A stretch of 41,315 nt of DNA, taken from assembly GCA_947467315.1 (NCBI GenBank), contig CANIID010000010.1, positions 1 through 41,315 of the forward strand, in the 5' to 3' direction. Below are positions 1 to 37,599 of the stretch, piece after piece. Every line of letters starts with the position of its first letter. Within the stretch, counting starts at the first letter, position 1. Origin of the DNA: Betaproteobacteria bacterium (GTDB lineage Bacteria > Pseudomonadota > Gammaproteobacteria > Burkholderiales > SG8-41). The notes under the pieces are model-generated. The model saw nothing but the letters and a program-made list of their open reading frames with translations, did no database searches and had not been told where the DNA came from. Both the position numbers and the translations under genes were made by a program.

Positions 1-101
1 GATTGCTGCGGTTTGAGATACAACGCGGGACATGGGTTTCCTTGAGTGTGTCTCCCTGATTACAGGGAATGTAAATCCAACGATTGCGGCAGTCCAGCAA
101 G

Positions 102-6456: not shown

Positions 6457-6489
6457 ATTATAAATAATCGTTTAAAAACAAATGGTTAC
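6457..6489 (-). repeat. AT-rich 33-bp dispersed motif, copy 1 (diverged)
   Basis: Minus strand GTAACCATTTGTTTTTAAACGATTATTTATAAT. Confidence 0.45.
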
Positions 6490-6502
6490 GTATTTGTTGG
6501 TG

Positions 6503-7699: not shown

Positions 7700-7809
7700 T
7701 GTCTGTAGTCCTTGAAATGGGAAAGTGCTGAAACCAGAGTGTATCCGCGTGCGCGATGCGCATCCTGCATCGGGCAGGCGTCAGTCACGCCCTGAAGCGG
7801 TATTGCAAG

Positions 7810-7834
7810 AATTCTTTAATAAACAAATACTTAT
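7810..7834 (-). repeat. AT-rich dispersed motif, copy 2
   Basis: Minus strand ATAAGTATTTGTTTATTAAAGAATT; supplies the TAA stop codon of the 7831-8517 CDS. Confidence 0.55.
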
Positions 7835-8517
7835 GATTTTTTCGCGCGCTGCGTAACCTGCAGCATGTTCGCCTGCTCGGCGAACCATTCTGCGGCGTAA
7901 CCGGTGTTACGCAGTTCGTCGTAGTACGGCCCGCCGAGGGTATGGTGAACGTTGCCCGGATTTGCGAGTGGCGCATCGTAGCCGACCAGATGATTCCAGC
8001 GATGCGGCAGCTCGCCGATCAAGTCGTCGTTGTCCAGCCATTTGAATTGATGCAGTTGCAGACCGCTGGCCGTGTTCACGTAGTCGGGTGTGAGCGTGCG
8101 GCACTTCGCGCAATTCATCAACATCACGCTCGACCAGTTCTTTTTTTCGTATTTCGACTGCGGCTCGTTGAGAAATTTGGTGGTCTCTTTCGGCACGTGT
8201 TGGTGTTTGACCACCTGCAAGGCATACCGCTCATCGCGCAGCGCCCACAGCTTGGCGATATCGTCCAGCATCAGCATGTCGCAGTCCATGAACAACGCCC
8301 AGCCTTCAAAGTCGCACAGGTAAGGCGTGAGAAAGCGCGTGAAGGAAAAATCCGTCGATTGCAGCGGATCGCGAGGCCGCGTGAAAACGCCTTCGAGCGA
8401 CGACAGCATCAACGGCACGAATGCGACGGGCGCCGAGGCGCGGCGCGCGATGCTGTGCTGCAAAACATACAATGCAGTCGATTCGCGACCATCGTAACCT
8501 ATGAAAACTCGAATCAT
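7831..8517 (-). CDS. Glycosyltransferase-like protein (DXD-containing, GT8-like)
   Basis: Likely start MIRVFIGYDGRESTALYVLQHSI; DXD-type motif WALFMDCDMLMLDDI. Confidence 0.65.
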   Translation of the reverse strand: MIRVFIGYDGRESTALYVLQHSIARRASAPVAFVPLMLSSLEGVFTRPRDPLQSTDFSFTRFLTPYLCDFEGWALFMDCDMLMLDDIAKLWALRDERYALQVVKHQHVPKETTKFLNEPQSKYEKKNWSSVMLMNCAKCRTLTPDYVNTASGLQLHQFKWLDNDDLIGELPHRWNHLVGYDAPLANPGNVHHTLGGPYYDELRNTGYAAEWFAEQANMLQVTQRAKKS

Positions 8518-9609: not shown

Positions 9610-9669
9610 GAATATTTCCTCAAGGCTTGTCAGGACTGGCAGGGTTAGCAGGGAGTGAGGATACCGCCG

Positions 9670-10119
9670 ATTCGCAGGGGCAACAACGCCGCCAAGGGCA
9701 ATGCCGGTCAGTTGAAGTATTCATCCACCGGTGTCGGCGGCAGGCCGCATCTCGCCATGGAACTGTTCAAGGCGGCGACCGGCATCCATATCGTGTACGT
9801 GCCGTACAAAAATTCGTCGCCGCGTTTCTCCGATGTGGCAGGCGGACAAATACAGACGTGCTTTTTTACCCTGCCGGGCGTTTTGCCCTTCGTCAAATCA
9901 GGGCGGATGCGCGACCTCGCCGTCTCGTCGGCCCGGCGTGCCGAGCAGTTGCCCACTGTGCCGGCCGTCATCGAATCCGGCGTGCCGAATTTCGATGTCA
10001 CCGTGTGGCAGGGATTTGCCGTGCCCAGAGGCACGCCGCAAAACCACATCGCGAAGATTTGCGCCGCGATAATGAAGGCCAGGAACGAGTCGATTTTAGT
10101 CAATCACTGCCCATCATAG
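9670..10119 (+). pseudogene. Decayed Bug/TctC-family fragment (central part only)
   Basis: GQLKYSSTGVGGRPHLAMELFKAATGIHIVYVPYK...LPTVPAVIESGVPNFDVTVWQGFAVPRGTP matches Bug mid-region; lacks signal peptide, N-lobe and normal C-terminus. Confidence 0.8.
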
Positions 10120-10156
10120 CGATGGCCGCTGCCGGCCCCTGAGCGCGTTTAAAGTT

Positions 10157-11221: not shown

Positions 11222-11299
11222 GGTTGAAGTTCCTCGTTTTTTTATCAGTATATTGTGCCTTGCTTCGCCGTGGCGCTGCTTCTGCCGGATGGATATACT

Positions 11300-11331
11300 G
11301 TAAGTATATGTTTTTACTCAATATTTTTTGA
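11300..11331 (+). repeat. AT-rich dispersed motif, copy 3
   Basis: GTAAGTATATGTTTTTACTCAATATTTTTTGA; 16-nt identity TAAGTATATGTTTTTA with copy 4. Confidence 0.6.
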
Positions 11332-11407: not shown

Positions 11408-12394
11408 ATGACCCAACACCCATCAAGACTGGCGGCGCTGACGACACTGAGCGCGCTGATGACGCTGATGCCGATCACGGCAGGCGCGCAGGCGCAATCG
11501 TATCCGAGCAAGCCGGTACGCCTACTGGTGGGCTTCGCGCCTGGCGGCGGTGTCGATATTAGCGCGCGCATCGTGGCGCAGAAACTGGGTGAGTTGTGGG
11601 GACAAACCGTGGTGCCGGACAACCGCGCGGGCGCGGGCGGCACCATCGCCACCGATATCGCGGCCAGGGCGCCTGCGGATGGTTACTCGCTGTTGTTCTG
11701 CGGCATCTGGTCGCACGGCGTTGCGCCTTCGCTCTACAAAAAACTCAACTACGATCACTACAAGGATTTCGCGCCGGTGTCGATGATCGGCACCACGCCC
11801 AATGTGCTGGTGGTCAATCCGTCGGTGCCTGCCAAGTCGGTGAGCGAATTCATCGCCTACACCAAGACCAACAGCGGCAAGATCGTCATCGCCTCGCCCG
11901 GCACCGGCAGTTCGCCGCACATGACGATGGAGCTGTTTCGGCTGACCACCGGCATCAACATCGTGCATGTGCCCTACAAAGGCGGCGCGCCCGCGCTGGT
12001 GGATCTGCTGGGCGGCCATATCCAATCGATGTTCGACAACATGTCATCACAATTGCCCACGATGAAAGCGGGACGCACGCGTGCGCTCGCCGTCACCTCG
12101 CCCAAGCGCAGCGCGCATTTGCCGGAGGTGCCGACCATGCGCGAATCCGGCGTGCCCATTGATGTGACGGTGTGGTACGGCCTGTGTGCGCCGGCGGGTA
12201 CGCCCAAACCGATCCTCGCGAAACTCAATACCGATCTCACCAAGGTACTGAACCTGCCCGACACGCAGCGCCGGCTGGCCGAGCACGGCGTTGATACCTC
12301 GCCCACGACGCCGGAACAGTTTGCGGCGTTTATCAAATCCGAAACGGACACCTGGGCGCGGGTGGTACGCGACGCCAAGGTGCCGCAGCAGTAG
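11408..12394 (+). CDS. Bug/TctC-family substrate-binding protein
   Basis: 328 aa; YPSKPVRLLVGFAPGGGVDISARIVAQKLGELWGQTVVPDNRAGAGGTIATDIAARAPADGYSLL. Confidence 0.95.
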   Translation: MTQHPSRLAALTTLSALMTLMPITAGAQAQSYPSKPVRLLVGFAPGGGVDISARIVAQKLGELWGQTVVPDNRAGAGGTIATDIAARAPADGYSLLFCGIWSHGVAPSLYKKLNYDHYKDFAPVSMIGTTPNVLVVNPSVPAKSVSEFIAYTKTNSGKIVIASPGTGSSPHMTMELFRLTTGINIVHVPYKGGAPALVDLLGGHIQSMFDNMSSQLPTMKAGRTRALAVTSPKRSAHLPEVPTMRESGVPIDVTVWYGLCAPAGTPKPILAKLNTDLTKVLNLPDTQRRLAEHGVDTSPTTPEQFAAFIKSETDTWARVVRDAKVPQQ

Positions 12395-12402
12395 CGGAAC
12401 GC

Positions 12403-13407
12403 ATGCGGCGAATATTTTCGATGGTGGCGTGCGTGCTGGCGGGCATGCTCGCCAGCACGGGTTTTGCGCAGACGTCATCCGTGCCTTCAAATCCGTATCC
12501 TACCAAGCCCATCCGCATCGTTACCTCGGATGCGGCCGGTGGTAACGATTTCGTTGCGCGTCTGATCGCGCAGGGGTTGACCGTGAGTCTCGGCCAGCAG
12601 GCGGTAGTGGATAATCGTCCCGCCGGCGTGATCCCTGGTGAGATTGTGTCGAAAGCACGACCCGACGGTTATACCCTGCTGGTCTACGGCAACAACCTGT
12701 GGATCGGGCAATTTCTCCAGCACTCGCCGTATGATCCGGTGCGCGACTTTGCGCCGATCTCGCTCATCGGCAGAGCGCCCAATGTGCTGGTGGTGTATCC
12801 CTCGGTGCCGGCAAACTCGGTGAAGGCACTGCTCGCGCTGGCTAAAACGAAACCCGGAGAACTCAACTACGCGTCGGGTTCCATCGGCTCGTCGTCGCAT
12901 CTCGCGGCCGAATTGTTCAAGCACATGGGCGGCGTCAATATCGTGTGGATACCCTACAAGGGCGGCGGCCCCGCGATGAGTGCAGTGATCGCCGGGCAGG
13001 TGCAACTGAGTTTTGGCACGGCGGCCGCAGTGGCGCCACACACGAAATCCGGCCGGCTGCGCGCGTTGGCGGCCACCAGTGCGCAGCCGACCACGCTGTT
13101 GCCCGCGTTGCCGGTGATCGCGACAGATCTGCCGGGTTATGAGTCGGTGGCGTTCTACGGCATCTTCGCGCCGGCGGGAACCCCGGCGCCGTTGGTCGCT
13201 CGCCTGAATCGGGAGATCAAGTCGCTGCTGGACGGCGCTGCCGTGAAAGAGCGTCTATTCAACGCGGGTGTGGAAATCGATGGCGGCGCGCCGTCCGCAT
13301 TTGCGGTCGCGATTCAGTCCGACATGGTCCGCGTGGGCAAGATGGTGAAGGAGGCGGGCATACGGGTTGACGGGCTGCGGCCTGCTGCATCACCCGGGGC
13401 GCGTTAA
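12403..13407 (+). CDS. Bug/TctC-family substrate-binding protein
   Basis: 334 aa; YPTKPIRIVTSDAAGGNDFVARLIAQGL, RPDGYTLLVYGNNLW, PYKGGGPAMSAVIAGQV. Confidence 0.94.
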   Translation: MRRIFSMVACVLAGMLASTGFAQTSSVPSNPYPTKPIRIVTSDAAGGNDFVARLIAQGLTVSLGQQAVVDNRPAGVIPGEIVSKARPDGYTLLVYGNNLWIGQFLQHSPYDPVRDFAPISLIGRAPNVLVVYPSVPANSVKALLALAKTKPGELNYASGSIGSSSHLAAELFKHMGGVNIVWIPYKGGGPAMSAVIAGQVQLSFGTAAAVAPHTKSGRLRALAATSAQPTTLLPALPVIATDLPGYESVAFYGIFAPAGTPAPLVARLNREIKSLLDGAAVKERLFNAGVEIDGGAPSAFAVAIQSDMVRVGKMVKEAGIRVDGLRPAASPGAR

Positions 13408-17929: not shown

Positions 17930-18856
17930 CTATTGTGCTTTGATCCCCGCAGCCTTCGCGATCTGCTTAACCGAATCGTTTTCGCGCCGCACGAAGCGCG
18001 CGAACTCCGCCGGCGTCATGTGCAGCGGTTCAGCGGCGAGTTTGCGGAAGGGTTCACGCAGCGCGGGCAAGTCAATCGTGCGCGCTACGTCTTTGGCAAT
18101 TTTATCGACGATGCCCGCACTCACACCGCGCGGCGCCCATACGCCGAACCACAACGATTCTTCGTATCCAGCGACGCCCGCTTCAATGAGTGTCGGCACA
18201 TCCGGCAACAGCGCCGAGCGCTGCGTGCTGGTCACGCCCAACGCGAGCAGTCGGTTGCTCTGGATAAACGGCAATGCGGTGCCGATGGTCGGCAGCCAGT
18301 AATGAATGCGCGCCATCATCACATCGTTCATCGCCTCCGGCCCGCCCTTGTACGGCACATGCAGCGCGTCGATAGCCATGGCGAGGCGCAATTTCTCGGC
18401 GGCGAAATGCGCGCCGCTGCCGATGCCGGCCGAGCCGTAAGTGACGTGCCCCGGTTTCGCTTTCGCCAGCGCGATCAATTGCGCCACGCTCTTGATGCCC
18501 TGCGAGGGCGCGATGGCGAGCACTTGATACATGCTGGCGATGGGCGCGATCTCGATGAAATCCTGCTGCGCGTTATAGGGTAACTGCGTGTAGAGCACCG
18601 TGTTGATGGTTTGGCTGATGCCGCTCACCAGCAGCGTGTAACCATCCGCCGGCGCGCGCGCAACCAACGCCGTGCCCAGCGTGCCGCCCGCGCCGGGGCG
18701 GTTATCCACCACGATTTGTTGTCCCCAGGCTTCGGATAATTTCTGGCACACCAGCCGCCCCACAATGTCCAGACTGCTGCCGGGCGAAATCGGGAAGACC
18801 GCACGCACGGGTTTGCTGGGGTAGGGCTGTGCGCGTGCGACGGCCATGAGCAACAC
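17930..18856 (-). CDS. Bug/TctC-family substrate-binding protein
   Basis: 308 aa; YPSKPVRAVFPISPGSSLDIVGRLVCQKLSEAWGQQIVVDNRPGAGGTLGTALVARAPADGYTLLV. Confidence 0.94.
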   Translation of the reverse strand: MLLMAVARAQPYPSKPVRAVFPISPGSSLDIVGRLVCQKLSEAWGQQIVVDNRPGAGGTLGTALVARAPADGYTLLVSGISQTINTVLYTQLPYNAQQDFIEIAPIASMYQVLAIAPSQGIKSVAQLIALAKAKPGHVTYGSAGIGSGAHFAAEKLRLAMAIDALHVPYKGGPEAMNDVMMARIHYWLPTIGTALPFIQSNRLLALGVTSTQRSALLPDVPTLIEAGVAGYEESLWFGVWAPRGVSAGIVDKIAKDVARTIDLPALREPFRKLAAEPLHMTPAEFARFVRRENDSVKQIAKAAGIKAQ

Positions 18857-18889
18857 ACCAACGAACAGGGCTGTCGCAGTATGTGTGAT

Positions 18890-18920
18890 ATAAGTATATG
18901 TTTTTATTTATATTTTTAAC
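18890..18920 (+). repeat. AT-rich dispersed motif, copy 4
   Basis: ATAAGTATATGTTTTTATTTATATTTTTAAC; includes the complement of the stop codon of CDS 18916-20310. Confidence 0.6.
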
Positions 18921-20310
18921 ATTGCAACAATGAGCGCAAGCGCCGCGCATCGGCCAGCTTTTCGAGCTGCCAAATCGCATCACACAGCGCACGCGCCTTT
19001 TTCGCGCCCAGCACCGGCGCCATCAGGTGATAGCACTTTTCATCGACCTCGGCGCGGGTCATCGGGTTGCCGGGGGTGCCGCGCACGGCTTCGGTGTGGT
19101 GACGCACTTTGCGGCCATCCTTCAGCGTGATTTCGACGATGCCCTGACGTTGCGGCAGTTTCTTTTGCAGTGCTTCGTCGCCGATGAGTTCGATGCGTTT
19201 GCGCACGGCCAGCACTTTCGGGTTTTTCATGCGCTTGATGTCGTGCGCGGAATCAAAGGTGGCGATGCCGTCGATGAGCATTACCGCGCACATGTGCTGC
19301 ATGCAGATGTCGGGCATCTCGCGGTCGCCGACGGTGTTGGCGCCGGTGATCGACACGCGCACCACGAGTTTTTCCACGTCGTCGGCTTTGATGTTGTGTT
19401 CGCGGATCAGGGTGAGCAGCGAATCCAGCGGGGCTTGTATCGGCGAGCCGACGGTCCAGCGCTTGATGTTGGTGCGCATGATTTCGTACGTGCTGCCGAG
19501 TTCGCGCACCAGTATCGACGGATTGGGGGTGAAGCCGCTGCGTTGCGATTCATCGTAGGCGGCGTAGAAGCCGCGCTCGCCGAACAGGATGTCGTCGGTG
19601 GCGGTGCAACCGGCGGCGACCATCGTGACAGCGGTGGCGCCGTTGCGCGCAGGCATGCCGCCGAAGTCGAACGCCTTCTCGATGTGTTCGGTGTCGCGCG
19701 CGTAGCTGGACAATCCGCCGGCTTGTTGCGCGGCGTAGGCGAGCGCGTAACGCACTTGCTTTGCGTTAAAGCCGGATAGCGCGGCGGCGGCGGCGGTGGA
19801 GCCGAAGGTGGGGCCGAAACAATGCGTCAGATGCCCGACCCGGCGAAACGCGGTATCGCCCAGCGACATATTCAGCCGCGAGCCGACGTCGTAACCCAGC
19901 GCCACCGCGCGCAGCAACGCAGTGCCGCTGCGCTGGTGCCGCTCGCCGAACGCCAGCGCGTTGGCGACGATGGCGCAGCCGGGATGCATCATCGACGGCG
20001 CGTGCGAATCATCGGTTTCGTCGGCGTGCGCCATCATCGCGTTGGCGAGCGCGGCGTTGACCGTGGTGGTCATCATGCGCGAACCGACAATAGTGGCTTC
20101 TTTGGTACCGCCAAGGGTTTTGGCGTATGCCAGCGCGGCCTTACCCGGCGACAGTTGGCTGCCGGACACCATCGCCGCTATCGTATCGAGGATGTGATGC
20201 TTGGTTTTTTCGGCGACGGCTTTCGGCAGCGCCTTGCGTGGCGCAGCGGCGATGTAGGCGGCTAGGGTTTGGGTGATGGGGGAGATTTTCGATGCAACTG
20301 CGGTGGACAT
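18916..20310 (-). CDS. MmgE/PrpD family protein
   Basis: 464 aa; HHILDTIAAMVSGSQLSPGKAALAYAKTLGG, NAMMAHADETDDSHAPSMMHPGCAIVANALAFGE. Confidence 0.93.
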   Translation of the reverse strand: MSTAVASKISPITQTLAAYIAAAPRKALPKAVAEKTKHHILDTIAAMVSGSQLSPGKAALAYAKTLGGTKEATIVGSRMMTTTVNAALANAMMAHADETDDSHAPSMMHPGCAIVANALAFGERHQRSGTALLRAVALGYDVGSRLNMSLGDTAFRRVGHLTHCFGPTFGSTAAAAALSGFNAKQVRYALAYAAQQAGGLSSYARDTEHIEKAFDFGGMPARNGATAVTMVAAGCTATDDILFGERGFYAAYDESQRSGFTPNPSILVRELGSTYEIMRTNIKRWTVGSPIQAPLDSLLTLIREHNIKADDVEKLVVRVSITGANTVGDREMPDICMQHMCAVMLIDGIATFDSAHDIKRMKNPKVLAVRKRIELIGDEALQKKLPQRQGIVEITLKDGRKVRHHTEAVRGTPGNPMTRAEVDEKCYHLMAPVLGAKKARALCDAIWQLEKLADARRLRSLLQC

Positions 20311-20477: not shown

Positions 20478-21452
20478 CTATTTAGTCATGCCGATGTCGC
20501 TAAACACCGTGCGCAAAAATTCGTATTGCTGCCGCAAGTGTTCGCGCGTGGCGGCGGATTTTCTGAAATCAGGATCCTGAAAATCGATTGCGAGTTGCCG
20601 TTTCCAGTCGGCGTGATTGACGGCGCGCTCGATCATGTTTTCCCAATAGGCAATCTGCGCCGGCGTCAGACCGCGCGGGCCCATCACGATGGTGAAGCCG
20701 CCCAGCACCAGGTCAAAGCCCTGCTCGCGCAGGGTGGGCACGTCGGGTATGGCGGGCACGCGCTGCGCGGTGGAGACGCCGAGGATACGCAGCGCGCCGT
20801 TTTTATATTGCGGCACGGCGTTGTCGATAGACACCGACATCATGTCGATGTGGCCGCCGAGCAATTGCGTGAGGGATTCCGCGCCGCCGGCGAAGGTCAC
20901 CACCTTCAGGCGCCGCGCGTCGATGCCGTTCATTTTTGCCAGCAGCGCGATCATCACATGCGGCGTCGAGCCGCGCGTGCTGCCGACCGACACGCTTAAC
21001 GCCTGCGGGTCTTGTTTCAGGCGCTCGATCACATCGGCGATGGATTTTAACGGCGAGGCGGTGCGCACCGCGAGCACGCTGCGTTCGCCGCTCACCATAG
21101 CCAACGGCGTCATGTCGTTGGGGCCGATGGTGCTGCGGCCCAGAATGTGATTCGACAGATAGCCCGGTCGCACAATCACCAGGTAATGCGCGTCGTTCGG
21201 ATGCTGGTTGGTGTAAGTATAGGCCAGCGCACCGCCGCCGCCGACCTTGTTCACTACGGTGACGTTTTGCAGCCATTTGTTTTCAGACCAGATTTTTTGC
21301 AGCACGCGCGCAGTGCGGTCGTTGCCGCCGCCGGGGCCGGAGCCGACGACAAACTCCACCGGCTTATCGGGTTGCCAGGCGGGTTGCGCCTGAGCGGTCG
21401 CACACACACACGTCAGGCAAGCGAGCAGCGCTCGCATCACATGGGTTTTCAT
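20478..21452 (-). CDS. Divergent Bug/TctC-family substrate-binding protein
   Basis: 324 aa; WQPDKPVEFVVGSGPGGGNDRTARVLQKIW, IPDVPTLREQGFDLVLGGFTIVMGPRGLT. Confidence 0.9.
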   Translation of the reverse strand: MKTHVMRALLACLTCVCATAQAQPAWQPDKPVEFVVGSGPGGGNDRTARVLQKIWSENKWLQNVTVVNKVGGGGALAYTYTNQHPNDAHYLVIVRPGYLSNHILGRSTIGPNDMTPLAMVSGERSVLAVRTASPLKSIADVIERLKQDPQALSVSVGSTRGSTPHVMIALLAKMNGIDARRLKVVTFAGGAESLTQLLGGHIDMMSVSIDNAVPQYKNGALRILGVSTAQRVPAIPDVPTLREQGFDLVLGGFTIVMGPRGLTPAQIAYWENMIERAVNHADWKRQLAIDFQDPDFRKSAATREHLRQQYEFLRTVFSDIGMTK

Positions 21453-22476: not shown

Positions 22477-22586
22477 CGTCATTCTGGCGTAGGCCGGAAT
22501 CCAGTGCGTCCAAGATGCGCAGCATCATTATTCATGATTCTGCGGATCGACTTACTTACTGGATTCTGGCCTTCGCCAGAATGACG
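22477..22586. repeat. Inverted-repeat element with 29-nt arms (CGTCATTCTGGCG...CCAGT / ACTGG...CGCCAGAATGACG)
   Basis: Arms 22477-22505 and 22558-22586 are complementary with 2 mismatches. Confidence 0.85.
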
Positions 22587-24327: not shown

Positions 24328-25302
24328 ATGATTATGCGTGGAAAGTGTAGTGGGTTAGTGGCGGCGTCGTTGCTGGCGGTTTCGGCACAAGCGCTCGCGC
24401 AGAGCTACCCGGTAAAAACCGTGCGTCTCATCGTGCCGTTTCCGCCCGGCGGCAGTACTGAGACGCTGGCGCGCATGGTGAGCGTGAAGCTCGCCGAGAT
24501 GTGGGGGCAGCAGATCATCATCGACAATCGTCCGGGCGCGGGCGGTATTATTGGCACTGAACTCGGCGCCAAGGCCGCGCCCGATGGTTATACGCTGCTG
24601 ATGGGCTCCGGCGCGCCGCTCACCATCGTGCCGGGGTTTCCGGCGAAGCTTGCGTACGATCCGCTCAAGGATTTTGCGCCGATCATCAACGTGGCGGCGG
24701 TGCCAAATGTAGTGGCGTTGCATCCATCGGTACCCGCGCGCACTATCAAGGAGTTGGTGGCGCTTGCCAAGGCGCGGCCCGATCAACTGAGTTTCGCCTC
24801 CAACGGTGCGGGTTCGCCGGGGCATCTGGCGGGCGAGTTGCTCAAATCGATGACCCACACGCGCATCACGCACGTGCCGTACAAAGGCAGCGCACCGGCG
24901 ACGATGGCGCTGGCGTCGGGCGAAACCTCGATGACGTTCACCACCACCACGGCGGTGTTGCCGCACGCCAAAGCGGGGCGGATCAAGATCATCGCGGTGA
25001 CCACGTTGCAACGCGTGCCGCAGTTCCCGGAGTATCCGACCGTGGCTGAATCCGGCCTCGCGGGTTACGAGGCGATCTCGTGGTTTGGGCTGGTGGCGCC
25101 TGCGGCGATTGCGCCCGAGCTGGTGAAAAAAATCCACGCCGACACGCTGCAAGTGGTCAACAGCAGCGATATGAAGAGCCGCATCGCGGGCCTGGGCGCG
25201 ACACCGATAGGCAACACGCCGGAGCAGTTTCGCGCGCAGATACGTGATGACCTGGCCAAGTGGGCGCGCATTATTAAAATATCCGGCGCGCAGGCAGACT
25301 GA
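24328..25302 (+). CDS. Bug/TctC-family substrate-binding protein
   Basis: 324 aa; YPVKTVRLIVPFPPGGSTETLARMVSVKLAEMWGQQIIIDNRPGAGGIIGTELGAKAAPDGYTLL. Confidence 0.96.
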   Translation: MIMRGKCSGLVAASLLAVSAQALAQSYPVKTVRLIVPFPPGGSTETLARMVSVKLAEMWGQQIIIDNRPGAGGIIGTELGAKAAPDGYTLLMGSGAPLTIVPGFPAKLAYDPLKDFAPIINVAAVPNVVALHPSVPARTIKELVALAKARPDQLSFASNGAGSPGHLAGELLKSMTHTRITHVPYKGSAPATMALASGETSMTFTTTTAVLPHAKAGRIKIIAVTTLQRVPQFPEYPTVAESGLAGYEAISWFGLVAPAAIAPELVKKIHADTLQVVNSSDMKSRIAGLGATPIGNTPEQFRAQIRDDLAKWARIIKISGAQAD

Positions 25303-25408
25303 CCAGAGCGCCATCCGTGTGGCACTATCGGTGTTGCATCACCAGTTGACGGTCGGACACGGCGTAGCCTATTCTGTCTTCGAATCATTCATCCAACAGG
25401 ACATCTCC

Positions 25409-26056
25409 ATGAAAAATTTTCCCGCCGTTACCGCAGGATTGCTCGTTGCGGCATTTGCTTTTTTCGGTTGCGCCGGGAATGCGCCTCTCCCATTTAACCA
25501 GCAGCCGTGGGGCAATCTACCGATTGGCTCGGATAAAGAGCCCTGGGTGACGCTGATCGACGGCGAAAAAGGACTTGAGAATTTTACGCGTCTGGGCGAT
25601 GCGAACTGGCTCGCCATGCACGGCGCGATTCAGGCCGATCGCAAGAACGGCAGCAGCACGGAGGCAGGCATACTGCTGTCGAAACAGTCCTATACGGATT
25701 TTCATATTTACACAGAGTTCTGGTCGGATGACGACGCCAATAGCGGTATTTATATCCGCGTGATGAATCAGAAAGTCGTGAATACCAAAGCGGCGTATGA
25801 GGTGCAGATTTGGGACAAGAGCCCAACCATGGCGACCGCATCGCTGATGCCGCCGGCTAAAGCCGCGCCCTCGTTCAAGGCGGCCGGCCGGTGGAATACC
25901 ATGGAAATCACCGCGAAAGGGCCGCGCATGACGGTGACGATGAACGGCGATCTGGCGGTCGACGTCAACGACACACAATTTTCCAGCGGCCCGATTGCGC
26001 TTCAGTACAATTCGGGTATCGTCAAGTTTCGCAAATTGATGATCCGCCCACTTTAA
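25409..26056 (+). CDS. DUF1080-like (3-keto-disaccharide hydrolase fold) lipoprotein, copy 1
   Basis: Likely start MKNFPAVTAGLLVAAFAFFGCAGN (lipobox FFGC); EPWVTLIDGEKGLENF, FHIYTEFWSDDDANSGIYIR. Confidence 0.85.
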   Translation: MKNFPAVTAGLLVAAFAFFGCAGNAPLPFNQQPWGNLPIGSDKEPWVTLIDGEKGLENFTRLGDANWLAMHGAIQADRKNGSSTEAGILLSKQSYTDFHIYTEFWSDDDANSGIYIRVMNQKVVNTKAAYEVQIWDKSPTMATASLMPPAKAAPSFKAAGRWNTMEITAKGPRMTVTMNGDLAVDVNDTQFSSGPIALQYNSGIVKFRKLMIRPL

Positions 26057-26118
26057 TTTCGCATGACGCATTTTGCAGAGTTGTTTTGTAAGTAACTACT
26101 CATCACAAGGGGAGCACC

Positions 26119-26769
26119 ATGAAACGATTTACCACGCAAATCGCAGGACTGTTGATCGTCGCATTTACTTTTTTCGGTTGTTCGAGTAATGCGCCTTTGC
26201 CGTTTAACCAGCAGCCGTGGGGCAATCTGCCCATCGGTTCCGACAAAGAGCCGTGGGTGACGCTGATCGACGGCGAAAAAGGCATGGAGAATTTCAATCG
26301 ACTGGGCGACGTGAACTGGCTTGCCATGCATGGGGCGATTCAGGGAGACCGTATGAACAGCGGCAAAGGCGCCGGACATTTGGTGACGAAAAATTCCTAC
26401 AAGGATTTCCAGATTTATGCCGAGTTCTGGGCCGATGAAGACGCCAACAGCGGCATCTTTATCCGCGCGCAAGACCCCAAAAAGATCGGCGCGGACAACG
26501 CCTATGAGGTGAATATTTACGACAAGCGCCCCGGACCGGAATACGGCACCGGCGCCATCGTCAATTTCGCCAAGGTGAATCCGATGCCGAAAGCCGCGGG
26601 CAAGTGGAATACGTTTCTAATCACTGCCAAGGGCGACCGTTTGACCGTGGTCATGAACGGCGACACCACCGCCGACATCAATGATAAGTCGTTTGCCAGC
26701 GGCCCGTTTACGCTGCAATACGGCAGCGGCATCATCAAGTGGCGTAAGGTGATGGTGCGCCCGCTGTAA
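26119..26769 (+). CDS. DUF1080-like lipoprotein, copy 2 (tandem paralog)
   Basis: MKRFTTQIAGLLIVAFTFFGCSSN; near-identical N-terminal half to copy 1. Confidence 0.87.
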   Translation: MKRFTTQIAGLLIVAFTFFGCSSNAPLPFNQQPWGNLPIGSDKEPWVTLIDGEKGMENFNRLGDVNWLAMHGAIQGDRMNSGKGAGHLVTKNSYKDFQIYAEFWADEDANSGIFIRAQDPKKIGADNAYEVNIYDKRPGPEYGTGAIVNFAKVNPMPKAAGKWNTFLITAKGDRLTVVMNGDTTADINDKSFASGPFTLQYGSGIIKWRKVMVRPL

Positions 26770-26972: not shown

Positions 26973-27857
26973 ATGTTTCGCACTCTGTTTATGTTCGTTA
27001 CCGCACTGGCCGTGTTGACGGGCGCAGTCCATGCGCAACAGGCAGAACGCCCCGCCATCGCCACCACCAAGGTTGAAGGCACCGACAACGTTTATATTTT
27101 TCGTAACGTCGGCCACCAGGCGATATTCGTGGTGACGCCTGACGGCGTAATCGTCACCGATCCCGTCGCGTATGGCCGGCCCACCGGCGGGCAGGCGTAT
27201 CTGGATGCGATACGCAAGATCACCGACAAACCGATCAAGTACGTGGTCTACAGTCATCATCACTTCGACCACATCGCCGGCGGCAAGGTGTTCAAGGATG
27301 CTGGCGCGACCTTTATCGCGCATCATCGCGCGAAGTCGCGGCTGGAAGCGCTGAAAGACCCGCATACGGTGTTGCCGGATGAAGCGGTGAGCGATCGCGG
27401 CCGCACCCTACGCCTCGGCGGCACCACGCTGGAGCTGTCGTATCACGGGCTGAATCATTCGGATTCGACGCTGGTGATGCGTCTGCCGAAAGAGAAAATC
27501 ATCTTCGTGGTCGATACCATACCCGTGGGCACGGTGCCCGGACGCGGCATGATTGATATGCATCCGCTGGAAACCGAGGCGTTTTTGCAGGACGTGCTCA
27601 AGCTCGACTGGGAGCGTTTGATTCCGGGCCACCCCGGCCCCGGCGACCGGCTTGGCACCAAAAAAGACGTGGAAGATCAGCTCAAGCTATTGCAGACGGC
27701 TTCCGCTGAAATCAAGAAGCTCGCCCATGAAGGCAAGTGCTGGGAGCCGGCGGAGAAGGAATTCAAAATGCCGGAATACGAAAAATGGCCGGGCTATGCG
27801 GCAGGCTTGCCGTTCATTGCGCGCCGCTATTGCGGATTGTGGGGGCGTGGTACTTGA
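26973..27857 (+). CDS. MBL-fold metallo-hydrolase, exported
   Basis: 294 aa; HHHFDHIAGG metal-binding motif; signal peptide; AGGAGG-like RBS. Confidence 0.93.
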   Translation: MFRTLFMFVTALAVLTGAVHAQQAERPAIATTKVEGTDNVYIFRNVGHQAIFVVTPDGVIVTDPVAYGRPTGGQAYLDAIRKITDKPIKYVVYSHHHFDHIAGGKVFKDAGATFIAHHRAKSRLEALKDPHTVLPDEAVSDRGRTLRLGGTTLELSYHGLNHSDSTLVMRLPKEKIIFVVDTIPVGTVPGRGMIDMHPLETEAFLQDVLKLDWERLIPGHPGPGDRLGTKKDVEDQLKLLQTASAEIKKLAHEGKCWEPAEKEFKMPEYEKWPGYAAGLPFIARRYCGLWGRGT

Positions 27858-28669
27858 TGAGCGACATGAAATGGATGGATGTGAATGGCGTCAGCCTGCG
27901 CTACGAACTGTCAGGTAACGCGAGCGCGGGCACGCCGGCGGTAGTGCTGATACACGAGCTGGGCGGCTGTCTCGATAGCTGGGACGAGACGCTGCCCGCT
28001 TTTCAGCAGCATTTTCGCGTGCTGCGCTACGACCAGCGCGGCTTCGGCCAAAGCGAAAAGGTCAGCGGCACGTTGAAACTCAGCGACATGGTGGCGGATA
28101 TCGCGGCGCTGCTGGACGCGCTCGCGCTATCGCAGCCGGTGCATGTGGTGGGCTCGGCGCTGGGTGCTGGGATCGCTGCCGCGTTCGCCGCGCGCCACCG
28201 GCTGCGCATGGCGCGGCTGGTGGTACAAAGCCTGGTGACGCGCTCCAACCCGGCGACGCGTCCGCACATGATCGCGCGCGCGGCGGAGGTTGAAAAAACC
28301 GGCATGCGCGCACAGGCGCAGGCGAGTCTGGATCGTTCGTACCCGGAAGCCTTGCGTGTCGGCAGCGCGAACCGGGCGCGTTTTGAAACCTATCGCGCGC
28401 GCTGGATCGGCAATGATCCGCACAGCTTCGCCGCGATCAACCGCATGCTGCTCGAAATGGAAGTCGATGCCGAGCTTGCCGAGATCAACTGTCCCACGCT
28501 GTCGATCGGTTGCGATCACGACGTGATGCGCCCGCCCGCGATGGTGGAAGAGCTTACCAAGCTAATTCCCAGTGCGCGCTACGCCAATGCGGATTCAGGC
28601 CATTTCATGCACGCGCAAACGCCGGAGCTGTTTGCGAAAATGGTGGTGCCGTTTCTGCGTGAAGCGTAG
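27857..28669 (+). CDS. Alpha/beta-fold hydrolase
   Basis: Start overlaps the upstream stop (TGATG); VVLIHELGGCLDSWDETLPAFQQHFRVLRYDQRGFGQSEK, CDHDVMRPPAMVEEL. Confidence 0.93.
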   Translation: MSDMKWMDVNGVSLRYELSGNASAGTPAVVLIHELGGCLDSWDETLPAFQQHFRVLRYDQRGFGQSEKVSGTLKLSDMVADIAALLDALALSQPVHVVGSALGAGIAAAFAARHRLRMARLVVQSLVTRSNPATRPHMIARAAEVEKTGMRAQAQASLDRSYPEALRVGSANRARFETYRARWIGNDPHSFAAINRMLLEMEVDAELAEINCPTLSIGCDHDVMRPPAMVEELTKLIPSARYANADSGHFMHAQTPELFAKMVVPFLREA

Positions 28670-28677
28670 GGATATTC

Positions 28678-28706
28678 ATAAGTATTTGTTTATAAATAAT
28701 AATTTC
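28678..28706 (+). repeat. AT-rich dispersed motif, copy 5
   Basis: ATAAGTATTTGTTTATAAATAATAATTT between the alpha/beta hydrolase and ThDP genes. Confidence 0.6.
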
Positions 28707-28717
28707 AGGGGATGTAG

Positions 28718-30397
28718 ATGCCGCAAAAAATGACCGGCGCGAGATTGTTCGGCCAGATTCTTAAATCGTACGGTGTGTCCCACCTGTTTTTCATGGACGC
28801 CGTGCTGCGGCGCGCGTTGGCGGAAATGGAAGACACCGGCATCAAACGCATTCTCGGCCACTCCGAGAAAGGCGTGGCCTACATGGCCGACGGCTACGCG
28901 CGCACCTCCGGGCGGCCCGGCGTGTGCATGGCGCAATCGGTGGGCGCGGCGAATCTCGCCTCGGGCATGCAAGACCCCTATCTCGGCCATTCGCCGGTGG
29001 TGGCGATCACCGGGCGTCACGTCAGCACCATGCAATATCGCAATGCGTATCAAGAGGTTGACCATCAGCCGCTCTACGGCGCGGTGACCAAATTTCACGC
29101 CAAGATCGACGCGCTGGAACAAATGCAGCAACTCATGCGCCAGGCATTCCGCGAGGCCACCACCGGCACGCCGCGCCCCGTGCATCTGGATATGGCCGGG
29201 TTTACCGGTGATGCGATCACGCCGCTCGAAGGCATGTTTGATGTGATGCAGGACGACGCGCACACGCGCTACCCGGCGTTTCGCCCCGCGCCCGATGCGG
29301 CGGCGGTGCAGCGCGCGGTGGCGGCGATTGCGAAATCCCAACGGCCGGTGATCATTGCCGACCGCGGCGCGACGATTTCCGATGCGGGCGCCGCGCTGGC
29401 CGCGCTGGCCGCAAAAATCGGCGCGCCAGTGTGTGCCACGCCCGACGCGAAAGCGATCCTCACCGAAAACAACCCGCTATTCTACGGCACCATGGGCTTG
29501 TATGGCCGCACCGGCGGCAATCACATTGTCGATGAAGCGGATCTGGTGATTTTCTGCGGCAGCAACACCAGCGATCACACCACCGGCAACTACAAAATGC
29601 CGAAAGACGGCACGCCGATTATCCAGATCGACATCGACCCGGTGGAAATCGGCCGCAACTACTCCGGCGTCATCGGCGTGCTGGCCGATGTGCGCACCGC
29701 CGTCGAAGCGATCACGGCTGCAGCCGCGGCGGCGAAGCACGATGCGTGGCTCGCCACCGCGAAAAAGCATGTCGATGCGTGGCGCGTGGAGACCGAGAAA
29801 ATACGGTCGTCCGATGCGGTGCCGATGAACCCCGGCCGCCTGTGTAAAGAGCTGACCGAACTGCTGCCGAAAGACGCGATCCTGTTCGCCGACACCGGCT
29901 TTGCGGCGCTGTGGACCAACACCATGGTGTATTTCAATCACCCGGCACAGCGCTACTTCAGAGCGGCAGGTTCGCTCGGCTGGTCGTTCCCTGCGTCACT
30001 CGGCGGCAAATGCGGCGCGCCCGATAAGCCGGTGGTGTGTTTCACCGGCGACGGCGGCTTTTATTACCACCTGCCCGAACTCGAAACCGCCAGACGCCGC
30101 GGCATCAAAACCGTCACCATCGTTAACAACAACAAGTGCCTGGCGCAAGGCTTGAAGAATCTCTCCATCGCCTACGCCGGCAAAGCGGAACCGAACCGCC
30201 GCGACGAGTGCTACGAATTCCTCGAAACCGATTTCGCCAAAATTGCCAAGGCGTTCGATTGCTTCGGCGTGGTGGTGGATAAGCCCGGCGATTTCAAGAA
30301 AGCGTTCGAGCAGGCGATGGCGTCCGATTTGCCGGCGGTGATTGATTGCCGCACGGAGTTTGCGTCGCAGGCACCTATGCCTTGGATGCCTTCTTGA
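28718..30397 (+). CDS. Thiamine-diphosphate-binding enzyme (acetolactate synthase/benzoylformate decarboxylase-like)
   Basis: 559 aa; GHSEKGVAYMADGYARTSGRPGVCMAQSVGAANLASGMQDPYLG; GDGGFYYHLPELETARRRGIKTVTIVNNN ThDP motif. Confidence 0.94.
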   Translation: MPQKMTGARLFGQILKSYGVSHLFFMDAVLRRALAEMEDTGIKRILGHSEKGVAYMADGYARTSGRPGVCMAQSVGAANLASGMQDPYLGHSPVVAITGRHVSTMQYRNAYQEVDHQPLYGAVTKFHAKIDALEQMQQLMRQAFREATTGTPRPVHLDMAGFTGDAITPLEGMFDVMQDDAHTRYPAFRPAPDAAAVQRAVAAIAKSQRPVIIADRGATISDAGAALAALAAKIGAPVCATPDAKAILTENNPLFYGTMGLYGRTGGNHIVDEADLVIFCGSNTSDHTTGNYKMPKDGTPIIQIDIDPVEIGRNYSGVIGVLADVRTAVEAITAAAAAAKHDAWLATAKKHVDAWRVETEKIRSSDAVPMNPGRLCKELTELLPKDAILFADTGFAALWTNTMVYFNHPAQRYFRAAGSLGWSFPASLGGKCGAPDKPVVCFTGDGGFYYHLPELETARRRGIKTVTIVNNNKCLAQGLKNLSIAYAGKAEPNRRDECYEFLETDFAKIAKAFDCFGVVVDKPGDFKKAFEQAMASDLPAVIDCRTEFASQAPMPWMPS

Positions 30398-30538: not shown

Positions 30539-31492
30539 ATGCACATCGTTGTGGCTTTTGCAGTTTTATTATCAGCAACACTCTCCCATGCCGCCTACCC
30601 CGACCGCCCCATCCGCCTCATCGTCCCGGTAGCCCCAGGCGGCGCGGTCGATGTCGTGGGCCGCATCGTCGCGCAAAAGCTCGGCGCGCAATTGGGGCAA
30701 AACGTCGTCGTCGATAACCGCCCCGGCGCCAACTACATCATCGGCACCGAAGTCGTCTCCAAAGCGCCCGCCGACGGTTACACGCTGCTCACCACGGCGG
30801 GCGGCCACACCATCAACCCGGTGGTGTACAAAAAGCTGCCGTACGACACCTTCCGCGACTTCACGCCGATCAGCCACATCTGTAATTCGAGCGGCCTGGT
30901 GATCGTGGTGCATCCGTCAGTGCCGATTCACACGCTGCAACAACTGATCGATTTCGCGAAGACCAATCCCGGCAAAATGATTTACGTCTCGGCCGGCTGG
31001 GGCAACTCCACGCACATCGCGGGCGCGCAGTTCGAGGCAATGGCCGGGGTGAAACTCACGCATGTGCCGTACCGCAGCGCTGGCCCGGCGGTCAGCGATC
31101 TGATTGGCGGACAAGTGCCGCTGATGTTCGGCCCCAGCCCGGTGGTGGTGCCGCTGGTGCAGGCGGGGCGATTGCGTCCGCTGGCGTTCACCGGGCTGAA
31201 GCGCACGCCGCAACTGCCCAATGTGCCCACGGTGGATGAGTCTGGATTGAAAGGCTACGAATCGACGGGCTGGTACGGCCTGTATGGTCCGCGGGGGATG
31301 CCACGACTTGTCGTGGACAAACTCAATGCGGCAGTGAAGCAGATGGTGCAGTCGGCGGATGTGCGCGAGCGCTTCACGCAACTGAATCTCGAACCCATTG
31401 GCAGCACGCCGGAGGAGTTCGCGAAGTTTCTGAAGGAAGATTACGAGCGGTACGTGGCAGTGGCCAAGGCGGCGGGGATACAACCGCAGTAG
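30539..31492 (+). CDS. Bug/TctC-family substrate-binding protein
   Basis: 317 aa; YPDRPIRLIVPVAPGGAVDVVGRIVAQKLGAQLGQNVVVDNRPGANYIIGTEVVSKAPADGYTLL. Confidence 0.95.
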   Translation: MHIVVAFAVLLSATLSHAAYPDRPIRLIVPVAPGGAVDVVGRIVAQKLGAQLGQNVVVDNRPGANYIIGTEVVSKAPADGYTLLTTAGGHTINPVVYKKLPYDTFRDFTPISHICNSSGLVIVVHPSVPIHTLQQLIDFAKTNPGKMIYVSAGWGNSTHIAGAQFEAMAGVKLTHVPYRSAGPAVSDLIGGQVPLMFGPSPVVVPLVQAGRLRPLAFTGLKRTPQLPNVPTVDESGLKGYESTGWYGLYGPRGMPRLVVDKLNAAVKQMVQSADVRERFTQLNLEPIGSTPEEFAKFLKEDYERYVAVAKAAGIQPQ

Positions 31493-32230: not shown

Positions 32231-33973
32231 CTACTTCGCCGGTATCACCGGCAGCAACACCGCCGCCGCATACTGCGGCCCAAAATGCAACGTCACCTTG
32301 CCACCGAAAATCTCCGGTGGGCGATCCGCCGGGTCGTCGTGCATGAAGGGGCCGCAGCCGCTCATGGGGTTTTTCATGTTCGATAGCGACGCGGCGGACT
32401 GGCCGTGGTCGTAGTCCTTGCCTTTGATCGTCAACGCCACGCGATAGCCCTTGGGCACGACGATGCAGCTCGGCCAGATCTCGATGTCGAGTTCGTACAC
32501 TTCGCCCGGCGTGAGCGGCTGCTTTTCATCGTGCGTGTGATAGGGGCGGTAGGGCAACGAACGCGCCTTGTCCAATTTGCGGTGCGAGGCGCGCAGCCAG
32601 CCTTGCGCGATGGGTGTTTTGGGATCGAGCGCGCCCTGGAACAACACTTCTTTTCCAGCGGGGTCGAACACGCGCAGAATCACGAACAAATCCGCATCGC
32701 TGGTCGATGACGAGACAAACAGTTTCAGCGCCGATGGCCCGGTGATTTCGGTGTCTTTTTCCAGCGGTGGCGTGGTGAACGTCGCCCCATCGCCCATGGC
32801 ATCGTAAGTATTTGTTTTTATTGTATTATTTTTAACGGCACTCAAGCCCATGTTGGCTGGGTCAAGATAAAAATTTGTCCACTGCGTACGCGCAATCGGC
32901 CACTCGTTTTCATGCCGCAGCACAAATTTTTCACCCGGATGGCGTATCTGCAATTGCACTTTGGGTTGTTGCTCCCAGCCGTTCTGCTTGCCCTTCAAAA
33001 AGTAATCGAAGAATTTTTTCTGCAGGCCCACGCCGTAGTCGGTGTAGAAAGGCGCCCAGTGCGAGCCACCGTGGGCTTCCAGCCATTTGTGTTCGGAGGC
33101 CGCGTGCATGTAGCCTTCAAAGTTGCCGCGCGGATGCAGGCCTTGCCCGCCCCAGTTGGCCGCCGATAGCACCGGCACTTTGACTTTCGACAGATCGCCG
33201 CTGCGCTCGCGGTAGTACGGGCCGTCCAGGTGGTTGGCGCTCAAATGGGCCCACATGTTTTCGCGGTTGTTCACCAACTCAGCGTCACTCAACGTCTCCG
33301 GGCCGCACGCGAGTTCGCCGGTGAGCGGGCTGCGTGTGCCGTGTTCGCCCACGCCGTGCTGCACGGTTTTGACCTGCATCTCTTGCCAATTTTTGCGGAA
33401 CACGCAGATGATGCCGCCGTGGTGTGTGGAGTCGCGGTAGTTATCCACCCAGCCTTCCCAAACGCAGATGGCGGCCAGATGCGGCGGCTGTGTCGCTGCG
33501 GCGCGCCACTGGTTCGCGCCGTAATACGAAATGCCGTTCAGACCAATCTTGCCGCTGCACCACGGCTGCTCTGCGGCCCACTCGATACAGTCGTGAAAAT
33601 CCTGGTTCTCGCGCGCGTCGTTGTGGCAAAGATAACCCGGCGAGCGCCCCGCGCCGCGCGAATCCACGCGCACCACGGCGTATCCGTCGGGTACCCATTT
33701 TTCGGGATCGACCACTTCCCAGTTCTGATATTTGTTGCTGCTGCCCGCCACCGCATCGGGATTTTCACGGCACATGATTTCCCACGCGGTTTTGTAGCCT
33801 TCCTGAAACGCAAGTCCCTTGCCGTATGGGCCGTAGCTCATGATCGCGGGGTATTTGCCGTCGGCAACGGGGCGAAACACATCGGCGCGCAACACGAGGC
33901 CATCGTCCATGGTGATCGGCACATCCCAATCGATACGCATGTGGTCGCGGATTTCGGATTTGTGGGTAGTCAT
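32231..33973 (-). CDS. CocE/NonD family hydrolase (X-Pro dipeptidyl-peptidase S15-like)
   Basis: 580 aa; YGPYGKGLAFQEGYKTAWE, VVRVDSRGAGRSPGYL, QPWCSGKIGLNGISYYGANQW, DAMGDGATFTTPPLEKDTEITGPSALKLFVSSSTSDADLFVIL. Confidence 0.94.
   Translation of the reverse strand: MTTHKSEIRDHMRIDWDVPITMDDGLVLRADVFRPVADGKYPAIMSYGPYGKGLAFQEGYKTAWEIMCRENPDAVAGSSNKYQNWEVVDPEKWVPDGYAVVRVDSRGAGRSPGYLCHNDARENQDFHDCIEWAAEQPWCSGKIGLNGISYYGANQWRAAATQPPHLAAICVWEGWVDNYRDSTHHGGIICVFRKNWQEMQVKTVQHGVGEHGTRSPLTGELACGPETLSDAELVNNRENMWAHLSANHLDGPYYRERSGDLSKVKVPVLSAANWGGQGLHPRGNFEGYMHAASEHKWLEAHGGSHWAPFYTDYGVGLQKKFFDYFLKGKQNGWEQQPKVQLQIRHPGEKFVLRHENEWPIARTQWTNFYLDPANMGLSAVKNNTIKTNTYDAMGDGATFTTPPLEKDTEITGPSALKLFVSSSTSDADLFVILRVFDPAGKEVLFQGALDPKTPIAQGWLRASHRKLDKARSLPYRPYHTHDEKQPLTPGEVYELDIEIWPSCIVVPKGYRVALTIKGKDYDHGQSAASLSNMKNPMSGCGPFMHDDPADRPPEIFGGKVTLHFGPQYAAAVLLPVIPAK
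32804..32836 (+). repeat. AT-rich dispersed motif, copy 6, inside the CocE CDS (in-frame)
   Basis: GTAAGTATTTGTTTTTATTGTATTATTTTTAAC (33 nt); minus strand encodes VKNNTIKTNTY. Confidence 0.65.
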
Positions 33974-35263: not shown

Positions 35264-36625
35264 ATGAACGCACCCGCCGAAATCAAAATCTCTCGCAGTA
35301 AACAAGTGTCCGACTACGCTGCAGGCGCGCTCACGCGCGAGTTTCCCGCCGCCATATTGGTGGCCGCCAAGGTCGCGCTGATCGATGTGATGGGATGCGC
35401 CATCGGCGCGTGGGACGACGAATGCGTGCGCCCGGTGCGGCGCGTGGTCGAGGGCTGGGGCGCGCGCGGCGAGGCGCAAGTGTTTTTGGGCGGACGCACC
35501 GCGCCGGCCTTTGCGGCGTTGGCCAACGGCACCATGGCGCACGCGATGGATTACGACGATTCGCATCAGATGGGGGCGGGCCATATCAGTTGCGTGTGCG
35601 GCACGGCGGCGCTGGCGGTGGCAGGGCAACTCGGCAGCAGCGAAAAAGATATGTTGGCGGCCTACATCACCGGCTTTGAAGTGATGGCGCGATTGGCGGG
35701 TGGCGGCCCGCCGGGCGTCGGGCGCAGCCTGCATCGGCGTGGACTGCATCCGACCTCGGTGTTCGGCCGCGTGGGCGCGGCAGTGGTGGCATCGGTGTTG
35801 ATGCGCCTGACGCCGCAACAAACCGAATATGCGGTCGGTGCGGCAACCACCACTGCGGGCGGATTGGTGGGCTCGTTCGGCACGCACTCCAAACCGTTTC
35901 ACGGCGGCAAAGCGGCGATGGACGGCATCCTCGCCGCCGAATTGGCGCGCGAAGGGTTTCAAGCATCGACCAAACTGCTGGAACTCGAAAAGGGTCTGCT
36001 CGATGCCTTCATTCAGGATCGCAAGGTTGAAGTGCCGCCTATGGATTTCAGCTATTGGGAATTGAAACGCAACGGCTTCAAGCCCTACGCCAGTTGCCGC
36101 GCCACGCATGCGTCGATACAGACGTCGCGCAAGTTGGCCGCTGCGGTGGGTGGACGCAAAATCACCAGGGTGCATGCCAAGGTGCATCCCAACGTGGTGG
36201 TGGTGGCGAACCAGTTGAATCCGCAAACGCCGCTGGAACACAAATTCAGCGTGCGTTATTGCATGGCGATGGGGCTGACGGGTTATCGGCTGGTGGCGTC
36301 GGATTTCACTGACAAGCTGATGCAGGATGCGAAGTTAAAAGAGATTGCTGCAGTCACCGAGGTCGAAGTCGTGCCTGAGCAGCCGCAATATGAGGCGCAT
36401 CTCGATGTGTATGTAGAAGGTGAGGCGAAACCGCTGCACGCTGACACGAACATCGTGTTGGGCCATGCCGACAATCCGATGAGCGAAGACGAAGTTTGGG
36501 GCAAGTTCGACGGGTTGGTGACGCCGGTGCTGGGCGCCGACAAGGCGCACGCTCTCTATGATTTGCTGAAGCATTTCGAGATGCCGGGAAATCTCAAAAA
36601 GATTGTTTCGCTGGTTGCCAAATGA
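35264..36625 (+). CDS. MmgE/PrpD family protein
   Basis: Likely start MNAPAEIKISRSKQVSDYAAG; KVALIDVMGCAIGAW, NGTMAHAMDYDDSHQMGAGHISCVCGTAALAVA, GGKAAMDGILAAELAREGF. Confidence 0.94.
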   Translation: MNAPAEIKISRSKQVSDYAAGALTREFPAAILVAAKVALIDVMGCAIGAWDDECVRPVRRVVEGWGARGEAQVFLGGRTAPAFAALANGTMAHAMDYDDSHQMGAGHISCVCGTAALAVAGQLGSSEKDMLAAYITGFEVMARLAGGGPPGVGRSLHRRGLHPTSVFGRVGAAVVASVLMRLTPQQTEYAVGAATTTAGGLVGSFGTHSKPFHGGKAAMDGILAAELAREGFQASTKLLELEKGLLDAFIQDRKVEVPPMDFSYWELKRNGFKPYASCRATHASIQTSRKLAAAVGGRKITRVHAKVHPNVVVVANQLNPQTPLEHKFSVRYCMAMGLTGYRLVASDFTDKLMQDAKLKEIAAVTEVEVVPEQPQYEAHLDVYVEGEAKPLHADTNIVLGHADNPMSEDEVWGKFDGLVTPVLGADKAHALYDLLKHFEMPGNLKKIVSLVAK

Positions 36626-37599
36626 GATGGCGTACCTGCATTGCCGCGTGTGCACTGCTATTGCCATCCGTAGTTAATGCGCAAGCGCCCGCGGCGGGTG
36701 CGTACCCCACCAAGCCGATCCGCCTGATTTCCCCCTATGCCGCCGGTGGCGGCAGCGACACGTTGGCCCGCATCATCGGGCAAAAGCTGCTCGAAAGCTG
36801 GGGTCAGCCGGTGGTGGTGGACAACCGCCCCAGCTCCGGCGGCAACCTCGGCGCGGAACTGGTGGCGAAGGCCGCGCCGGACGGCTATACCTTGTTTGTC
36901 ACGCCCAGCGCGGTGCTCACCATCAACCCGCATTTGTACGCGAAGCTGCGCTACGACAGCTTCAAGGATTTCACGCCGGTGATCGCGGCCACCAACTCGC
37001 CGTATTTTCTGGTGGTGCATCCGAAGATTCCAGCCACCAGCGTCAAGGAATTGATCGCATACGCGAAAACGAATGCGGGCAAAATGAATTACAGCTCATC
37101 GGGCAACGGCTCATCCACGCACTTGGCGGGCGTGTTGTTCAACACCTTGGCGGGAGTAGACATTGTGCATATCCCGTATAAAGGCGCCGCGCCCGCGATC
37201 GTCGATCTGCTTGCCGGCAACATCCAGATGCGCTTTTCCAGTGTGGTGCCGGTGCTGCCGCACATACGCAACGGCCGGCTGCGCGGTTTGGGCATGAGCA
37301 GCGCGAAACGATACTCGCCGATGCCGGAAGTGCCGACCATCGCCGAATCCGGGCTGCCGGGTTACGTGGTCGAGTCGTTTTACGTGATCGTGGCGCCCGC
37401 TGCGACACCGCGCAGCGTCGTGTCAAAACTCAACAGCGAAATCGCACGTAAGCTGAAAGACCCGGAGATCAATACCCGCATGGCAGCCGATGGCGCGGAA
37501 GTGATCGCGGCTTCCGTGGAGGACAGCGCGAAGATGCTGCGCGACGATTACCATCGATGGGCGAAGCCGGTGAAAGATTCCGGCGCACGCGCGGATTAG
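36622..37599 (+). CDS. Bug/TctC-family substrate-binding protein
   Basis: 325 aa; starts in ATGA overlap with MmgE/PrpD; YPTKPIRLISPYAAGGGSDTLARIIGQKLLESWGQPVVVDNRPSSGGNLGAELVAKAAPDGYTLFV. Confidence 0.95.
   Translation: MRWRTCIAACALLLPSVVNAQAPAAGAYPTKPIRLISPYAAGGGSDTLARIIGQKLLESWGQPVVVDNRPSSGGNLGAELVAKAAPDGYTLFVTPSAVLTINPHLYAKLRYDSFKDFTPVIAATNSPYFLVVHPKIPATSVKELIAYAKTNAGKMNYSSSGNGSSTHLAGVLFNTLAGVDIVHIPYKGAAPAIVDLLAGNIQMRFSSVVPVLPHIRNGRLRGLGMSSAKRYSPMPEVPTIAESGLPGYVVESFYVIVAPAATPRSVVSKLNSEIARKLKDPEINTRMAADGAEVIAASVEDSAKMLRDDYHRWAKPVKDSGARAD

Follow-up and report, generated by a model that had tools for sequence, protein, structure and literature searches.

We describe an asymmetric AT-rich motif, scattered in both orientations through the genome to which the window (the whole 41,315-nucleotide stretch of DNA that was analysed) belongs, which probably serves as a tag of the DNA-uptake-sequence type, in a system as yet undescribed in freshwater Burkholderiales. 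In Haemophilus and Neisseria, such sequences are the ‘self’ tags by which cells recognise their own DNA during uptake. With slightly more reserve, we think it likely that the motif marks a third system of self-recognition in transformation, evolved independently, with an AT-only core and at least two dialects, whose reader would be a minor pilin encoded in the ComP/FimT operon. According to a 2025 paper, no families other than the Pasteurellaceae (USS) and Neisseriaceae (DUS) are known to employ uptake sequences, and in the open-licence literature we came across none described for Burkholderiales.

The motif was characterized with a position weight matrix (PWM) in 829 kb of the window's genome; plain k-mer ranking was dominated by GC-rich coding words. 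It is a unit of ∼38 bp, carrying about 39 bits, in which a loose AT-rich block (−9 to −1) precedes the core TAASTAWWTGTTTTTAWW (0 to 17). The motif breaks off at 18, and positions 19 to 28 form a second T-rich block, ∼12 bp downstream of the first. The outer flanks of the copies have the composition of the genome background, and none is shared. At up to three mismatches, the window has eight occurrences of the 16-bp core TAAGTATWTGTTTWTA, against 0.08 expected; at up to two, the 5.23-Mb genome has 812 (410 on the plus and 402 on the minus strand), against 12 for the reversed pattern. The 829-kb sample contains 71 perfect cores, 57 with one mismatch and 33 with two, where shuffled patterns gave 0, 0.15 and 2.4 respectively. 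PWM sites in the same sample number 173–203, and 3–40 for a reversed-matrix control, depending on the threshold; the density is ∼190–250 per Mb, or roughly 1,000–1,200 per genome when extrapolated from the sample. Such over-representation, a consensus so strong that perfect cores abound where shuffled patterns give none, and the equal use of the two strands all argue for an uptake sequence.

Besides the copy inside a gene for a CocE/NonD family hydrolase, five other good copies are present in the window, each of them either between genes or at the end of one, as well as a weak site at whose score the reversed-PWM control yields hits too:

32231..33973, minus strand: intact CocE/NonD family hydrolase gene (Peptidase_S15 + PepX_C), 580 aa, which hosts a motif copy
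32796..32833, plus strand: the copy hosted by the CocE/NonD gene, a 38-bp unit with a PWM score of 48.8
6460..6497, minus strand: motif copy, score 48.0, intergenic, adjoining the CoA-transferase-like ORF 6503–7699 (−) at its 3' end
7805..7842, minus strand: motif copy, score 37.4, spanning the 3' end of ORF 7831–8580 (−)
11292..11329, plus strand: motif copy, score 50.6, intergenic, flanked by divergent TctC-like genes
18882..18919, plus strand: motif copy, score 46.1, intergenic, just beyond the 3' end of ORF 18916–20310 (−)
28670..28707, plus strand: motif copy, score 46.0, intergenic, right after the stop of ORF 27737–28669 (+) and ahead of the ThDP-type enzyme gene 28718–30397 (+)
21261..21298, plus strand: weak motif-like site, possibly due to chance, score 21.1, within a TctC-like gene

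Across the 829 kb, of which 88.6% is coding by our own gene calls, 138 of the 203 sites fall between genes, 33 run across a gene end and 32 are internal to genes, a preference for non-coding DNA that again favours an uptake sequence. The motif is often found within ∼25 nt past a stop codon, in either orientation; in co-directional gaps it follows the orientation of the gene 55 times and opposes it 45 times, its distances to gene starts are broad, and seven copies lie in convergent gaps. The copies are spaced more evenly than chance would place them within the available gaps: the CV is 0.61, as against 0.80 ± 0.05 when an equal number of sites was placed randomly, one per intergenic gap, and none of 500 simulations was as even. 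This regularity points the same way. The copies inside genes are mostly antisense (28:4, or 13:3 in a stricter set), presumably because the antisense orientation offers two open frames, one of which would encode KTNTY, a mild peptide, while a stop or a hydrophobic stretch would result from the sense orientation. KTNTY or near variants were found again in several unrelated genes, a recurrence that is likewise consistent with a tag for uptake.

The preliminary description had noticed in the hydrolase gene a 33-nt copy of an AT-rich repeat, in-frame at 32804–32836. The exact 33-mer GTAAGTATTTGTTTTTATTGTATTATTTTTAAC does lie there, as the single occurrence in the window at up to three mismatches (0 expected), and it reads on the minus strand as VKNNTIKTNTY, the peptide originally proposed, at residues 380–390 of ORF 32231–33973. 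The stretch is indeed one copy of a repeat, as the other cores in the window attest; its length needs correcting, because the unit extends over ∼38 bp (32796–32833), encoding ...NNTIKTNTY... on the hydrolase gene's own strand. Nor does the peptide form the linker preceding the C-terminal domain that had been supposed: the Pfam matches are PF02129 at residues 24–305 and PF08530 at 331–525, and residues 380–390 fall within the latter, the PepX_C domain, where there is a loop and then, at 386–391, a predicted β-strand (pLDDT about 92). Third positions are 88% AT in the motif codons versus 26% across the remainder of the gene. Exact third-base conservation in the motif is not unusual (0.733 versus 0.684), and constraint at the DNA level is unsupported by the third bases of this gene. 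Among CocE paralogs, those of ∼60% identity in L059, L060, L067 and L068 carry a whole or partial motif at the same residue position, and those in L054–L058 have GC-rich codons there.

At this gene, the one site at which origin was examined in depth, the alignments show that the motif arose in place by base changes. We compared 12 genus orthologs (about 86–95% identity) with 80 homologs from named public genomes, some genomes overlapping. Length across the motif site is equal in 90 of 91 homologous loci, motif-bearing or motif-free, and no gap opens over residues 380–390 when the Staphylococcus-type structure 3ib3 is aligned. The motif occurs in every CocE homolog of at least 85.7% identity, a level that equates to the genus (PWM score 23–50), and at the same site in 12 of 12 genus orthologs from independent assemblies; it occurs in no homolog below 80% identity (PWM score at most 1). 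Homologs beyond the genus mostly have P/A/S/T/D at the site, with 24–47% AT in GC-rich lineages, so that the motif overwrote ancestral codons by substitution, thereby altering the peptide to a K/N/T-rich one. The 11-residue gap in homologs that the preliminary description led one to look for is absent, and insertion into CocE is rejected. Its idea of a short non-coding repeat that invaded the gene without breaking it survives insofar as the repeat is mainly intergenic and the gene intact, but invasion by insertion does not. Origin in place, without a change of length, is a further point in favour of an uptake sequence.

Three related genera of one Burkholderiales family, g1, g6 and g7, have the same consensus in the samples. 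At up to one mismatch, the core is present in 100–610 copies in 13 of 14 g1 genomes, 442 in g6 and 7–187 in g7, in most of which it is abundant; it is scarce in g8, and near or at chance in the family's other genera and elsewhere in the order, G438 excepted. In this genome, from genus g163 of another Burkholderiales family, the dialect TAAGTATTTGATTTTATTGAATATTTT gives 167 matches versus 5 for the control, and its copies have unrelated flanks. A second member of g163 has a weaker set (22), and the dialect is near-absent in three other members. No further motif lineages were found among 369 genomes of the class. A motif common to g1, g6 and g7, with a dialect in G438, fits a recognition tag well. 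Relatives with a name are MAGs of uncultured betaproteobacteria; to judge by the record names, several seem to come from lakes. MAG records titled ‘Bordetella parapertussis’ (L109, L111, L114–L116, L122, L137, L146, L173) contain genes with 73–95% protein identity to this lineage, and are probably mis-titled.

We then consider the genes for transformation. G009, which is 97% complete, is the sole g1 genome of the 14 that is nearly motif-free (six copies). It gave no hits to ComEC, DprA or GspH/FimT, and ComEC and DprA are present in the other 13 g1 genomes. In an RpoC tree, G009 branches within g1 and the motif-rich g6 lies outside (86/90, moderate support), which makes loss of the motif the simpler reading. 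The G+C content of G009 (sample L291–L310) is 48%, compared with about 60% in the window's genome, and it is possible that its base composition shifted together with the loss of competence. G057, 99% complete, has seven copies, the fewest among the sampled g7 genomes, and no GspH hit; its comEC is frameshifted into two ORFs in different frames (L224:3404–5813), a split that may be an assembly error. The motif is near-absent where competence genes are lost or damaged, a pattern that rests on the two loss lineages G009 and G057 and that supports a role in uptake. Counting against a link with competence are G051 (75 motif copies and no ComEC hit, 91% complete), G059 (few copies though all competence genes are present), and the incomplete, motif-rich G008 and G011 (no GspH hit); in the dialect genus g163 there is no clean ComEC–motif pattern, G466 having ComEC yet four matches. 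The window's genome itself has a minor-pilin operon in which a ComP_DUS-family pilin (E 2e-16) is encoded beside a FimT/GspH pilin, together with PilV-like, PilW and PilX-like genes, and the presence of these two pilins also favours uptake. ComP_DUS-like pilins are found in motif-poor genera too, and the family was therefore rejected as a discriminating marker.

From these observations we infer a scheme in which the transformation machinery would favour motif-bearing DNA; a minor pilin that binds DNA would be the reading protein of a type IV pilus, with ComEC and DprA acting next. Mutations improving the match would more often reach relatives through uptake and recombination, and matches would spread by molecular drive wherever they were tolerated, in intergenic gaps and in a few protein loops. 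The CocE loop would be one of these, a K-T-N-T-Y-like peptide presumably being harmless there.

Redfield et al. (2006; PMC1626085) describe USS and DUS as arising in place, lying at slightly regular intervals, preferring non-coding DNA, showing no bias of orientation and having a strong consensus, and they report decay of the uptake sequence in competence-defective H. ducreyi, whose competence genes are broken. Each of these traits has a counterpart in the present motif. Like the Pasteurellaceae USS (Hin-type AAGTGCGGT, Apl-type ACAAGCGGT), the motif joins an asymmetric core to downstream AT/T-rich blocks; in the Hin-USS a T-rich segment is centred 12 positions to the right of the previous one, and the T-blocks here (+10..14 and +22..26) are also 12 bp apart. 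The likeness extends to a copy number of around a thousand or higher, the use of both strands, dialects, decay upon loss of competence, non-coding preference, in-place origin and strong consensus (PMC1626085, PMC12616744). The present motif differs in that the inner GCGG of the USS (AAGTGCGGT or ACAAGCGGT) is absent from its unrelated, AT-only core TAASTAWWTGTTTTTA, in having an extra upstream AT-rich block and few inverted pairs, and in its host, an uncultured freshwater Burkholderiales with 60% G+C. The Neisseriaceae DUS (GCCGTCTGAA and its dialects), whose receptor is ComP, resembles it in abundance, in the use of both orientations and in dialects between genera, and a ComP_DUS-family pilin, one of the candidate readers, is encoded here as well. 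However, the DUS is a continuous motif of up to ∼13 nt without AT blocks and of unrelated sequence, and the inner CTG of the GCCGTCTGAA type is absent from the present core. Because its core is unrelated to USS and DUS sequences, the motif belongs to neither family; by analogy, it seems to work in the way that they do. FimT of Legionella and Xanthomonadaceae, a pilin that binds DNA and has GRxR as a C-terminal motif (PMC8897410), offers another parallel, since a GspH/FimT-type minor pilin is encoded in the operon here and was not found in G009 and G057, but the G000 pilin has GRPN where FimT has GRxR. Against a tag for uptake we count the density (∼0.2 per kb, versus ∼1 per kb for USS and DUS), a core without the G+C-rich inner core of the USS type, the ordinary degree of exact third-base conservation in CocE, and the fact that there are two loss lineages only, in one of which, G009, G+C content is also much lower.

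Over-regular spacing, occurrence in both orientations, intergenic preference and an AT-rich sequence with T-tracts would also suit a site bound by some nucleoid-associated or chromosome-organising protein (matS/MatP- or Noc-like) and selected at fairly regular intervals. We regard this as improbable, because an asymmetric ∼39-bit motif with more perfect than one-off copies is stricter than is usual for such sites, ∼1,000 copies are many, and a chromosome-organising role does not predict near-absence in G009, which lacks ComEC, DprA and GspH hits. If a large regulon used the motif as its promoter, operator or terminator, such a transcriptional role would account for the mostly intergenic positions, often just after stops or ahead of starts, yet the near-even orientation relative to genes, the broad distances to starts, the scarcity of copies in convergent gaps, where terminators are expected, and the copies deep within coding genes make it very unlikely, and it was rejected on orientation and placement.

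The view taken in the preliminary description, a mobile repeat (MITE/REP-like) inserting copies, one of them into CocE, draws on the many dispersed near-identical copies and on the in-frame copy in a gene. There is hardly any room left for it, since the occupied CocE site is no longer than the empty ones, outer flanks drop to background, and the core is strict and asymmetric while the AT tracts vary; the background flanks led us to reject a larger mobile element as well. Least credible of all is a local accident of AT-rich codons, or an assembly artefact, at CocE: the AT-rich third positions of the motif codons would suit it, but the same site is occupied in every genus ortholog, in independent assemblies, and copies number hundreds genome-wide, which refutes it.

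If the motif is indeed an uptake sequence, then uptake specificity evolves repeatedly, this third case lying outside host-associated bacteria and using an unrelated AT-only core, and heavy homologous transformation in lake bacteria would be implied. It would also provide a new test of whether uptake motifs arise through molecular drive alone, and comparing motif decay with loss of comEC and dprA makes this question testable by sequence in many more genomes.

The window also shows a large expansion of genes for TctC/Bug-type solute-binding proteins, many of them adjoining catabolic genes. They include, among others:

102–1070, 8638–9609, 10232–11221, 11408–12394 and 12403–13407: TctC/Bug-type genes
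17930–18856, 20478–21452, 24328–25302, 30539–31492 and 36622–37599: further TctC/Bug-type genes

A short, apparently truncated TctC/Bug-type copy lies at 9627–10142. Tandem duplicate genes at 25398–25655 and 26108–26365 share 78% DNA identity over 258 nt and encode putative secreted proteins. G+C-rich inverted repeats at 1155–1381, 5221–5278, 3842–3904 and 22477–22586, of the types CCTTCCCCCTGAAGG and CGTCATTCTGGCG...GGAATCCAGT, form a separate class of dispersed repeats that is unrelated to the AT-rich motif.
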